NCBI GenBank assembly: GCA_021083345.1
Contig: JAJGRE010000001.1
Span: 372,001-436,000 of the forward strand
Source of the DNA: Calditrichales bacterium MX18-03
Lineage (GTDB): Bacteria; Bacillota; Clostridia; Lutisporales; Lutisporaceae
Direction: 5' to 3'
DNA: 64,000 nt
Part shown: positions 12,539-40,431 of the stretch, in pieces
Numbering within the stretch: the stretch's first letter is position 1
Layout: every line of letters begins with the position of its first letter
The notes under the pieces: generated by a model
Seen by the model: only the letters and a program-made list of their open reading frames with translations
What the model was told of the DNA's origin: nothing
Databases searched by the model: none
Position numbers and translations under genes: made by a program

Positions 12539-12567
12539 AGTTATAATTTAAAACCAAATCCCTAATT

Positions 12568-12773
12568 CTGGAGATAGAGGCGCACTTCTTAAAGAGTATG
12601 TTTATTCATTCCTACCCGATCAGTTAATGGCTGTCAGGGCAAGGTTGGTGGCAGACCGGATGAACAGAAAGGTAAAAGTGCCGAAGGCGAAAGCTTGCCA
12701 CAGGCTTGCGACCTGGTCCCGACGTGAACAACGGCCGGACTGTCACCGCCCCAAAGGCGGTGGAGAGCTATAC
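12568..12773 (+). ncRNA. Lysine riboswitch (L-box)
   Basis: The leader carries the conserved L-box elements in order: AGATAGAGGCGC, then AAAGAGTATG, a stem with GAAAGGTAAAAGTGCCGAAG, the GACGTGAACAACGGC segment, GGACTGTCACCG, and a closing GGAGAGCTAT whose CTAT pairs with ATAG at 12574-12577 to form P1. It precedes asd, the first gene of a five-gene lysine/diaminopimelate operon. A rho-independent terminator 60 nt downstream suggests control by premature termination when lysine binds. Confidence 0.93.
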
Positions 12774-12833
12774 ATGGATTGGTGTATTTGTTCAGCTTTG
12801 CTTTGTTTTGCTCTGGACAGATATATTCATTCA

Positions 12834-19343: not shown

Positions 19344-20012
19344 TTATTGTTCCTCATTTTCCGGTTCCGATGCTTCCTCTGCTTCCTCTGCTTCGTTGTT
19401 GACTTCCATTTTCGAAATGGATACCTCATATGCCGTTCTCGTCACAATCTGGTCTTCCGACAGCTTCTTCTGGTATACCCGGCTCTGGATCCTGCCCCAG
19501 ATCTTGATCCGGTCACCCACCTTCAGATTCTCCGAGTACCTTGCATTTCTGCCCCATGCAATACAGGGTATATAATCCGATTTATTATACGGCCTGTTAA
19601 CGGCAAGCAGCATATCGGTAATTTCACGACCGAAAGGTGTTGTTCGATATACCGGATTTTTGCAGATAAACCCATCCAGGTATATTTGATTGGGGTTCTT
19701 TACTTCCTCATCCGCTGTTTTCAGACTCCGGGCAAAAACCGTCAAGATGAGCTTGTTGCTGCCGTCCTGATATTTGTTGTAAGACCTTAATTGACCCTCA
19801 ATCTGGATTGCGCTGCCGATGTCGATATTCTGACCAGCGAGAAGGCGTTCAGATACTGTTATAGGAAGTATATCAGCCGTATCGCTTAATCTCGGCACAT
19901 CTAAAAGAATCGTATAAAAACCCTCACCATACATTTCATGGCTGAATTCCGGTTTGCTCGTAACGATACCGTATACCGATACAACATTGCTCTCTATGAC
20001 CTTATCAACCAA
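19344..20012 (-). CDS. SSB-like protein with two OB-fold segments
   Basis: A 222-residue protein that appears to contain two tandem OB-fold segments. The first (about 10-95) includes GIVTSKPEFSHEMYGEGFY and ILPITVSERLL. The second (about 105-190) begins NQIYLDGFICKNPVYRTTPFGREITDMLLAVNRP, reads very like a bacterial SSB core, and continues DYIPCIAWGRNARYSENLKVGDRIKIWGR. A very acidic tail follows but lacks the DDDIPF-type tip that binds SSB partners. I chose TTG 20012, 8 nt after GGGAG. A GTG at 20021 abuts the ribosome site. It probably binds single-stranded DNA but is distinct from the housekeeping SSB. Confidence 0.75.
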   Translation of the reverse strand: MVDKVIESNVVSVYGIVTSKPEFSHEMYGEGFYTILLDVPRLSDTADILPITVSERLLAGQNIDIGSAIQIEGQLRSYNKYQDGSNKLILTVFARSLKTADEEVKNPNQIYLDGFICKNPVYRTTPFGREITDMLLAVNRPYNKSDYIPCIAWGRNARYSENLKVGDRIKIWGRIQSRVYQKKLSEDQIVTRTAYEVSISKMEVNNEAEEAEEASEPENEEQ

Positions 20013-20129
20013 TGCCCCCACTCCCTTCGTTGTTCTTGCGTGTTTCGACGATTAAGCCTACAGTATACATATTCAGTGGAGGCTGGCATTATGAATTAAT
20101 TTTTATTTATACATCAAAAGATTTCTTGC

Positions 20130-21551
20130 TCAGAAAACCAGTTTGACACCTGTATTCAGTTTCCGGATATACCGCTGTGCATCATTCATCTCTTCTCCCC
20201 CCAGGATCAGGAGCAGGTCGCCTTCCTGAAGCTGGGACAGTGCATGGAGCAGTGCATGCTGCAGCATGTAGTAATACTTCAAACTGCTCAAGCCGGCTTC
20301 CTTAAAAAACCGCTTGTAGACCTTCACCGCCTTCAGCGGCATTTCCTTTGCTTCATAGTCATCATCCATGCAGCTGGTCAACACCACTTCGGTACAGTTC
20401 AATACCCTGCTCCACTCCGCCATGGTCTTTGCCCGCTCCTTATGATGATCGGCGGCATCCCCCTCATCGATTGATACCACGGCAAAAAGCCGCTTATACT
20501 GAAGCAGCTGGACAGCCTCCATTGCCGCTTCCATATCGGATACCGAGCGGCAATAATGGTCCATAACGGTATAATTCCCTTCAAATATCTTCTTGAACTG
20601 TCTGCTTACAGGGCGGTAGCCTTCCAATGCCGTCTTGACGGTATCCATCGGGATATCGTAATAGAGGGCGCAGGTTATAGCAGCCAACGCCTGGTAGATA
20701 TAATGCTGCCCCGTCAGATTCATCCGAAGGGATGTCTCAAAGGGCTCAATCAGGTTGCCTGCTTTTGTCTCGAAGCTTCTTTGCAGGCAATAGGTAAACC
20801 CGGTTGTCAGATCAATATTCATGCTGGATGCTGTCACAGCTGCCTTCATATTCATCCCGTAGGTAATGGGAATAATCTGCTTGCAGTGGGCGACGGCCTG
20901 CATGACATCCTGCTGGTCACCGTTGATGAAGACCGGCCGGTGTGCAGGCATACGGGAAAAGAAAGCCTGGTAGGCTGAAATGGTCCTCTCGTTCTCAGCC
21001 GCGCCGCTGGAAAAACCGGTGTCGGTCAATATACTGCAGTCATAACCGATACCGCTCAGAAAATACAGATCCTTTGAATCGGTGTTCAGGGATACCGGAA
21101 TTCTTTTGATTCCCAGGTCAGAAAGACGGCCTATCCTTTCAAACATTCCTTCTATGCTCATCATGCGGCTATATCGTATGCTTGGTATGATTTCGCTGGC
21201 ATCCTTGCCGTACTGCAAGCCGGAGTCCCTGTACATGATACACTCGATCATATCCATCAGGACATGGCTATCACTGCTGCCCACAACCGCGATCAGGCTG
21301 ACAGCTTCGCCAGGATGGCCCAAAAACTTCCCAAGCAGTGTGACCAAGGTGCTATGCGGATCCCTGACCTTGATCACTGGCAGCTCGGGATCATAGATGT
21401 TTCTTGATGTAAATATGAGGGAAGCGCCATTTTTGCTTGCCGTGTAAATATCCTTTCGGTCCCGCTTGCCGGACAAATCCACAAAAATCATGCCATCCCT
21501 TACCTTGTGCGGATCGGCAGTGGCACCTGTGGTTCCAAAGTGGTTTCTCAT
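20130..21551 (-). CDS. Mur-ligase-like protein lacking the ATP-binding P-loop
   Basis: A 473-residue protein built like MurE/MurF. The N-terminal UDP-substrate-like domain reads HKVRDGMIFVDLSGKRDRKDIYTASKNGAS. The central domain begins SLIAVVGSSDSHVLMDMI where active ligases have VTGTNGKTT. LTGQHYIYQALAAITCALYYDIP matches the family GxxNxxNALAA segment. The C-terminal domain (about 320-473) reads EGYRPVSRQFKKIFEGNYTVMDHYCRSVSDMEAAMEA. The P-loop Lys and Ser/Thr are missing, so ATP-dependent ligase activity is doubtful. ATG follows AGGAG. It may be a scaffold or regulator of peptidoglycan synthesis, which is inference. Confidence 0.8.
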   Translation of the reverse strand: MRNHFGTTGATADPHKVRDGMIFVDLSGKRDRKDIYTASKNGASLIFTSRNIYDPELPVIKVRDPHSTLVTLLGKFLGHPGEAVSLIAVVGSSDSHVLMDMIECIMYRDSGLQYGKDASEIIPSIRYSRMMSIEGMFERIGRLSDLGIKRIPVSLNTDSKDLYFLSGIGYDCSILTDTGFSSGAAENERTISAYQAFFSRMPAHRPVFINGDQQDVMQAVAHCKQIIPITYGMNMKAAVTASSMNIDLTTGFTYCLQRSFETKAGNLIEPFETSLRMNLTGQHYIYQALAAITCALYYDIPMDTVKTALEGYRPVSRQFKKIFEGNYTVMDHYCRSVSDMEAAMEAVQLLQYKRLFAVVSIDEGDAADHHKERAKTMAEWSRVLNCTEVVLTSCMDDDYEAKEMPLKAVKVYKRFFKEAGLSSLKYYYMLQHALLHALSQLQEGDLLLILGGEEMNDAQRYIRKLNTGVKLVF

Positions 21552-21644: not shown

Positions 21645-21848
21645 TTATTCCCTGCAATTGCATTTATAATCCCAGTCGCTGCGGCAGCACTCCTCTAAGA
21701 GCGGCCTTCTCCTGAATGTCAGGGACAGCAGCAGTTCATCCAGCTCTTCCTCGGCTTCGCAGGCAGATCTTGAAAGACATGCCAGGTTATACAGCAGCGA
21801 TTCGTAAAAAAGCGCCCGCCTCAGGTTTTTAATTGCACAGCGGTCCAT
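21645..21848 (-). CDS. Small Cys-containing protein of unknown function (67 aa)
   Basis: A 67-residue acidic protein starting MDRCAIKNLRRALFYESLL, with a helical middle part (EAEEELDELLLSL) and a C-terminus rich in Cys and charged residues (EECCRSDWDYKCNC). ATG 21848 is well placed behind AGGGGGTG. A longer frame to 21935 has no site. It precedes the Mur-ligase-like gene by 93 bp on the same strand and follows the RNA methyltransferase gene. Five Cys in a small protein suggest metal binding or a spore/coat role, but no family is recognised. Confidence 0.65.
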   Translation of the reverse strand: MDRCAIKNLRRALFYESLLYNLACLSRSACEAEEELDELLLSLTFRRRPLLEECCRSDWDYKCNCRE

Positions 21849-28804: not shown

Positions 28805-29584
28805 TTATAGCTTTTTCTGCATTCCGGTATGGTCTATGTAGTAGTTATCCTTGTAGATCAGCTCTGAAATGGGAACGATCTGGTATCCCTCCTGCTGAAG
28901 CCTTTCCAGTATGACCGGCAGCGCATCCTTTGTATAGGTGGCATTGTTATGGAATAAGACGATGCTGCCGTTCTTCACCTTGGAGAGCACCCGCTTGACA
29001 ATGGCATCCGCGCCATAGTCCTTGTAATCCAGCGAATCCACATCCCACTGAATCACCTGTATGCCAAGCTCCCTGGACGTCTCGATCAGCCGATTGTTAT
29101 AGTCGCCGAAGGGCGGCCGGAAAAGCGTCACTTTCTTGCCGGTGAGCTTTTCAATTCTTTGAGAGGTAGAATTCAGCTCTTCAAGGATCTGCTCCTTGGA
29201 AAGCTGTGACATTTTGGGATGCTTGGAGGAGTGGTTTCCAATCTCATGCCCCTCTGCGTCGATGCGTTTCACCATCTCCGGGAAGTTGTCGACCCAGAAG
29301 CCTACCAGGAAAAATGTGGTTTTGACATTGTATCTTTTCAAAATCTGAAGCAGGTTCTCCGTATAGTCGGACCCCCAGGCCGCGTCAAACGAAATCGCAA
29401 TTTTCTTCTCAGCCGTATCTACACAATAGATAGGCAGCTGCCTGTTGTTATTGTTGAAAACACTCACGATCCCCAGGTTGCTCATGCTGGTATAAACCAG
29501 CGATATACCTGCAATCAACATCACAAGCACCACATTGACCAGCCTATCGTTCCTTTTGAATTGCCTAAAGCCTCTGAACCTCAC
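28805..29584 (-). CDS. pdaB: Polysaccharide deacetylase family sporulation protein PdaB
   Basis: A 259-residue polysaccharide deacetylase of the PdaB type, needed in Bacillus for normal spore peptidoglycan or late sporulation. An N-terminal membrane anchor (about 17-36) is followed by PIYCVDTAEKKIAISFDAAWG (about 51-71) with the first catalytic Asp, the metal-binding GNHSSKHPKMS, RPPFGDYNN and VIQWDVDSLDYKDYG. KNGSIVLFHN follows. The DTAEKKIAISFDAAWG form is diagnostic of PdaB. The start is GTG 29584 behind AGGAGG. It ends at the bidirectional terminator. It is one of several sporulation markers in the window. Confidence 0.93.
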   Translation of the reverse strand: MRFRGFRQFKRNDRLVNVVLVMLIAGISLVYTSMSNLGIVSVFNNNNRQLPIYCVDTAEKKIAISFDAAWGSDYTENLLQILKRYNVKTTFFLVGFWVDNFPEMVKRIDAEGHEIGNHSSKHPKMSQLSKEQILEELNSTSQRIEKLTGKKVTLFRPPFGDYNNRLIETSRELGIQVIQWDVDSLDYKDYGADAIVKRVLSKVKNGSIVLFHNNATYTKDALPVILERLQQEGYQIVPISELIYKDNYYIDHTGMQKKL

Positions 29585-40256: not shown

Positions 40257-40431
40257 TAAAAAAGCTGGCTCACACCGCTTTTTTTCGCTATGGAACCCTA
40301 TGGTTCCCTTCGACGAATGCAAGCATTCTGAGCACCCTCCTTCAACGGCAGAGGGATTCTCCCCCTTGCATCCCCCATAGTACAGTTGTTTATACTTCCT
40401 GTACTATGAAAAGGCGGGCTTACGCCCGCCC
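40257..40431 (-). promoter_or_regulatory. Array of hairpins between the binding-protein and permease genes
   Basis: Four or five stems lie in a 215-bp gap: GGCGGGC/GCCCGCC followed by TTTTC on the minus strand (40413-40430), ATAGTACAG/CTGTACTAT (40377-40407), GAATGC/GCATTC (near 40314-40327), GGAACC/GGTTCC (40291-40306), and AAAGC/GCTTT near 40260-40280. On the minus strand the first resembles a leaky terminator after the binding-protein gene. The set probably gives more binding-protein than permease mRNA. Confidence 0.55.

Follow-up and report, generated by a model that had tools for sequence, protein, structure and literature searches.

Mur ligases are essential enzymes and drug targets. 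In plants the MurE homologue PAP11/MurE-like is described as one of the peripheral subunits of the plastid RNA polymerase (PMC12681378, PMC9456514), and by analogy it sets a precedent for a MurE-related protein within a nucleic-acid machine. The fungal Dis3L2/Ssd1 pseudonucleases are proposed in PMC8097288 to derive from a bifunctional enzyme whose active site was lost at least four times, with another region conserved. A YlxY/Pda/PdaB-type protein is named in Moorella spores in the excerpted text of PMC8745062, where Mur ligase is unmentioned. Literature searches joining Mur ligase with pseudoenzyme or catalytic inactivity, Mur ligase with sporulation in Clostridia, and Mur ligase family protein with spores found no paper, and those on pdaB with SSB in spores and on sigma E with pdaB gave unrelated matches only. 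Among the matches listed for pseudoenzymes, moonlighting and ordinary Mur ligases, no bacterial Mur pseudoenzyme family was named.

Within the window, the whole 64,000-nucleotide stretch of DNA analysed here, an open reading frame on the minus strand (20130-21551) encodes a 473-aa protein, hereafter X, which was assigned a Mur ligase fold with a degenerate catalytic site from the reading frame, domain scans, a structure model and a residue table. The reading frame is genuine, its ATG being preceded by the ribosome-site-like AGGAG, and many relatives likewise start behind GGAG-type sites. Pfam Mur_ligase_M (4.6e-4) and Mur_ligase_C (5.9e-6) matched narrowly below their curated cut-offs, while the MurE-type models NF001126 (2.8e-22, 78.9 bits, cut-off 373) and TIGR01085 (59.3 bits, cut-off 257.3) gave scores too low for X to be classed as MurE. 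All matches to X in the Pfam and NCBIfam scans were to Mur ligase models and below cut-off, and the scans returned no model specific to X. An AlphaFold model built from 20 family members (pLDDT 82.1, pTM 0.77) predicted a complete three-domain Mur ligase fold that aligned with MurC (1gqy, Z 31.8, 387 residues), pMurE (7tzi, Z 29.9, 421 residues), MurE (4bub, Z 29.4, 427 residues, 16% identity) and MurF (3zl8, Z 27.2, 401 residues). The domain matches and the full-length agreement of the model with MurE, MurC and pMurE bear out the preliminary description of a Mur ligase homologue with MurE-like domain order, and the term MurE-like is apt for the fold but not for the grouping, as X stood apart from MurE in the tree described below. 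Compared by fold, the PAP11 chain 8r6s_Q also resembled the X model (Z 26.6), although three aligned PAP11 chains keep a GTNGKTT or GTHGKTT P-loop and the gene context of PAP11 is unrelated.

Seven proteins of the genome matched Mur_ligase_M, namely X, MurE, MurF, MurD, MurC, cyanophycin synthetase and FolC, and each of the six besides X scored above an NCBIfam cut-off. Since the canonical ligases are encoded separately, the genome has no need of X as a ligase, and the idea that X is a second MurE standing in for a missing one was ruled out by the presence of canonical MurC, MurD, MurE and MurF.

In the alignment with MurE of the same genome, GTNGKTT is matched by residues 89-97 of X, VVGSSDSHV, in which GSSDSHV (codons 91-97, 21261-21281, minus strand) replaces the P-loop. 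This agrees with the earlier claim that the loop had been exchanged for a sequence lacking the Lys. A search of the whole window protein for G..GK[ST] and [AG]....GK[ST] was empty, which excluded an alternative P-loop elsewhere in it. Also missing were the Glu of EVSSH, the His of DHLD, the carbamylated Lys, the Asn of xNVYN, the Asp and His of DYAH and the Ser and Arg of DSR, all of which we take to have catalytic roles in Mur ligases. The middle domain of X carries Ser, Ser and Tyr in place of the Glu, His and carbamylated Lys, a combination that departs from a catalytic Mur ligase.

Relatives were recovered by a profile scan of genomes, a single-protein scan having yielded none. The X family was defined by residues K236, T240, S243, C-x-Q-R and E272 together with a PRK05813 gene next downstream, and the window gene has both. 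Among the 21 relatives of the same family that were searched, 20 carried X (matches at 3.1e-25 or better), and the remaining one, G005, matched only at the level of a canonical Mur ligase. Wider-family members included Lutispora thermophila, L. saccharofermentans, Clostridiales bacterium GWB2_37_7, Alkaliphilus serpentinus, Anaeromonas gelatinilytica, Petroclostridium sp. X23 and an Alkalibaculum bacchi MAG; the A. serpentinus form (L077) is intact and that of Petroclostridium sp. X23 (L091) single-domain.

Fifty-five X loci were compared. Thirteen were intact, having G..GK[ST] along with almost every catalytic residue, a count that includes L079 in spite of its shortened 317-aa reading frame. 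Sixteen formed the degenerate window family, fourteen of them encoding 422-485 aa and two encoding 332 aa (L055) and 396 aa (L056). Two were transitional, the P-loop being retained and the catalytic His gone (L222, L049), and twenty-four were without a P-loop, twenty-three of these encoding 160-244 aa and the other being L080, which at 352 aa was counted here though it is not single-domain. Three weak assignments (L209, 34 bits; L218, 69 bits; L210, 100 bits) entered the residue and locus counts but not the second tree. Eight of the shorter proteins were scanned against Pfam, of which four matched Mur_ligase_M (5e-9 to 1e-13) and four, including both 171-172 aa forms, were unmatched. The model of a 216-aa form (pLDDT 83.5, pTM 0.86) aligned with the MurE middle domain over 200 residues (Z 19.7), and the short forms have no N-terminal UDP-binding domain. 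Outside the fifty-five loci, L085 (195 aa, GSRGKT) and L088 (354 aa, GTHGKT) are shortened and have a P-loop, so P-loop loss and shortening were not always coupled.

The intact relatives resemble MurE in their P-loop and in the motifs EVSSH, DHLD and Lys, none of which remains in window X. They differ from MurE in that all thirteen are without Arg in the DNPR motif. In the window family the EVSSH Glu, the DHLD His and the carbamylated Lys were each found in none of the sixteen loci, as against 13/13, 13/13 and 12/13 of the intact forms, respectively. The P-loop Lys was present in 9/16 compared with 13/13, and the full G..GK[ST] occurred in L056 only (1/16). To the question of whether relatives conserve the loss the answer is therefore divided, as three catalytic residues are gone throughout the family but the missing P-loop Lys of window X is not a family trait, being present in nine loci. 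Together with the motif of L056, this means that nucleotide binding may persist in some members of the window family.

A set of residues, Y231, G232, K236, T240, S243, C255, Q257, R258, E269 and E272 (codons 231-272, 20736-20861, minus strand), forms a patch that is common to intact, degenerate and single-domain X with few exceptions. In the window family K236, S243, Q257 and E272 were found in 16/16 loci, T240 and C255 in 15/16 and R258 in 14/16, the other two having Lys. The twenty-four P-loop-less loci retained K236 (19), T240 (23), S243 (24), C255 (22), Q257 (22), R258 (23) and E272 (24). Across all loci C255 was present in 52/55, Q257 in 53/55 and E272 in 55/55, with Ser or Tyr at position 255 in three. 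By contrast, MurE of the same genome shares only the Glu at 272 and has no C-x-Q-R. In the predicted model the patch residues fall in strands 239-246, 250-256 and 271-277 or in adjoining loops (blocks of pLDDT 87-95), and by this model the patch is on or beside a three-stranded sheet of the middle domain.

A middle-domain tree of 59 rows was rooted on MurE/MurF. The X proteins formed a group of their own, apart from MurE as well as from a second MurE-like group (support 92/99, slightly below star level). Intact forms occupied several basal positions, and from this rooting the intact form appears to be ancestral. Four changes between intact and lost states were needed, comprising the window family with L052, L080 with L169, L222, and L049 with twenty-two short forms, and a tree that placed all forty-two lost rows together as a single loss was rejected (AU p 0.0013). 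In the second tree, made with the catalytic columns and three long rows removed, four changes were still needed (bootstrap range 3-5, at least two of them forced by the starred branches), and a single loss was again rejected (p 7.7e-5). The tree counts alone carry no direction, and the changes were read as losses rather than gains because of the outgroup and the complexity of the site. Horizontal transfer may also have contributed to the history of X. The second MurE-like group (L031, L033 and L149) consists of proteins of about 520 aa, and the P-loop is present in L031 and L033, for which no SSB gene was found in the neighbourhoods examined (L050, L051).

Ratios of dN/dS (NG86) were obtained for twenty chosen close pairs, the X value being unusable in two. 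Values for X were 0.06-0.18 in the window family (nine pairs), 0.06-0.21 in short forms (five usable pairs) and 0.08-0.21 in intact forms (four usable pairs), all of them rough since dS exceeded 1 in many pairs, compared with a value near 1 expected of an unconstrained gene. The neighbouring SSB gene and pdaB gave 0.02-0.12 and 0.03-0.08. X evolved faster than its neighbours in the window family, its identity (55-81%) being lower than that of the adjacent SSB gene (83-95%) in all nine pairs. Judged from these codon comparisons, X of the window family is under purifying selection. A pseudogene was ruled out by the dN/dS values and by the presence of X in nearly all same-family relatives. The earlier proposal of a non-catalytic Mur homologue is thus well supported at the sequence level, by the absence of three catalytic residues from every window-family member and by purifying selection, and X probably has a second, non-enzymatic job.

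The gene next downstream of X in the window (19344-20021, minus strand) encodes a PRK05813 SSB-like protein (NF004476, 360.7 bits, cut-off 171) with an SSB domain at residues 111-206. In 24 of the 26 clustered loci X adjoins this gene on the same strand with a gap of 36-302 nt; the remaining ones, L050 and L051, lack SSB and carry another MurE-like gene. The sporulation gene pdaB is usually upstream of X in relatives, in many directly. In the window pdaB (28805-29584, minus strand; TIGR02764 spore_ybaN_pdaB, 240.5 bits, cut-off 237.4) is separated from X by a methyltransferase gene and by moxR, DUF58, transglutaminase and FMN-oxidoreductase genes on the plus strand. Eighty regions were taken, seventy-nine centred on SSB matches and one (L153) on an X-like match without SSB. 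The seventy-nine comprised 23 with X and pdaB, 8 with X alone, 26 with pdaB alone and 22 with neither, and since eleven had been picked for a known nearby X, the 31/79 with X is no unbiased frequency. Where pdaB was followed by the SSB gene and X was undetected by its profile, X would be dispensable. SpoIVA was found in 50/52 X-bearing genomes (missing from G001 and G074) versus 281/391 overall, a hand count confounded by kinship, and the link of X to sporulation is an indirect one, drawn from this co-occurrence and from the pdaB neighbourhood. The PRK05813 SSB-like protein itself was above cut-off in 275/391 genomes of the class and often lies behind pdaB.

Taken as a whole, we consider it reasonably probable that X is a conserved Mur-superfamily pseudoenzyme in which ligation has been lost repeatedly and binding through the patch kept, acting as an adaptor or regulator in endospore formation with PdaB and the SSB-like protein. 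The ancestor would have been bifunctional, combining ligation with the capacity to bind a partner or ligand at the patch; ligation would have become dispensable and been lost several times, with patch binding kept. Parallel loss of the ligase site beside one retained patch is expected of a bifunctional ancestor, and from this we infer the binding function. The neighbouring genes suggest that X would serve endospore formation alongside PdaB and the SSB-like protein with its two OB folds, and its likeliest role there would be that of an adaptor or regulator. Repeated active-site loss with another region retained is the pattern shared with Dis3L2/Ssd1, although that protein is unrelated to X and X also loses whole domains. 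A more far-reaching version is doubtful, in which X would be a Mur ligase of spore-forming Clostridia with a second function via its surface patch and a repeatedly discarded chemistry, reduced in the end to a single-domain adaptor between spore-wall modification by PdaB and an OB-fold nucleic-acid-binding protein. It would then parallel, in bacteria, the plant MurE homologue in the RNA polymerase of plastids.

The retention of all three Mur domains in window X, with the aligned P-loop Lys in nine window-family loci, would also suit a sensor that can still bind a nucleotide or cell-wall precursor but not turn it over, and that signals its supply to the SSB-like partner. This is unlikely though worth considering, as the P-loop, DSR motif and catalytic Asp and His of window X are degenerate and the short forms are without the UDP-binding domain. 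The near-invariance of the polar residues at 255, 257 and 272 could instead mark a different enzyme with C255, Q257, R258, E272 and K236 as an ATP-independent active site, but the same residues occur in X with intact ligase motifs and so are not a later replacement, and position 255 varies in three loci, making this a rather improbable alternative. That X is a functionless gene decaying towards deletion would fit the loci with no detected X between pdaB and the SSB gene (26/79), the stepwise shrinkage of the proteins and conservation below that of the neighbours. It is nonetheless very improbable, as the selection data (0.06-0.21) largely contradict it; the near-invariant patch, a shared element upstream of X and the retention of X in 20/21 relatives also speak against it. 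Intact, transitional, degenerate and single-domain forms coexist in living Clostridia, all of them next to this SSB-like gene, so that the proposed passage from enzyme to non-enzyme is open to direct testing. The site of the surviving function is predicted by the conserved patch, and X, which has no family model of its own and is placed at the pdaB locus, is a testable sporulation candidate.

The preliminary description had X following a small Cys-containing protein. This 67-aa reading frame (21645-21848, minus strand, best start 21848) is matched by a homologous frame immediately ahead of X in 15/16 window-family loci including the window, L044 ending at a contig end, as found by an iterated profile search among the reading frames of window-family upstream regions. 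Its position in the family was thus upheld but its cysteines are not conserved and were dropped as a functional clue. In L041 and L042 an inverted repeat, CACCTCCTTAATA...TATTAAGGRGGTG, was seen by eye over the ribosome site of the small reading frame; its centre is TATAAT-like and common to many relatives, and it may be a terminator, a translational switch or a promoter.

The element ATACATAAAA, with one mismatch allowed, was found upstream of X in 14/16 window-family loci (mononucleotide shuffles gave an expectation of 1.4) and in 15/39 other loci (expectation 4.2), and upstream of the SSB gene in 2/16. In L042, for example, it lies about 40 nt ahead of the ORF start, and in several loci it is followed by TATCAGC and ATATAT. 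In the window it is ahead of the SSB gene and not ahead of X. The element is possibly a promoter. Elsewhere in the window, a lysine riboswitch (12567-12778) is located ahead of a run of genes that includes dapB and others resembling, by eye, asd, dapA and aspartokinase, and a Clostridiales-2 small RNA (RF02937) was identified on the minus strand at 40303-40383.
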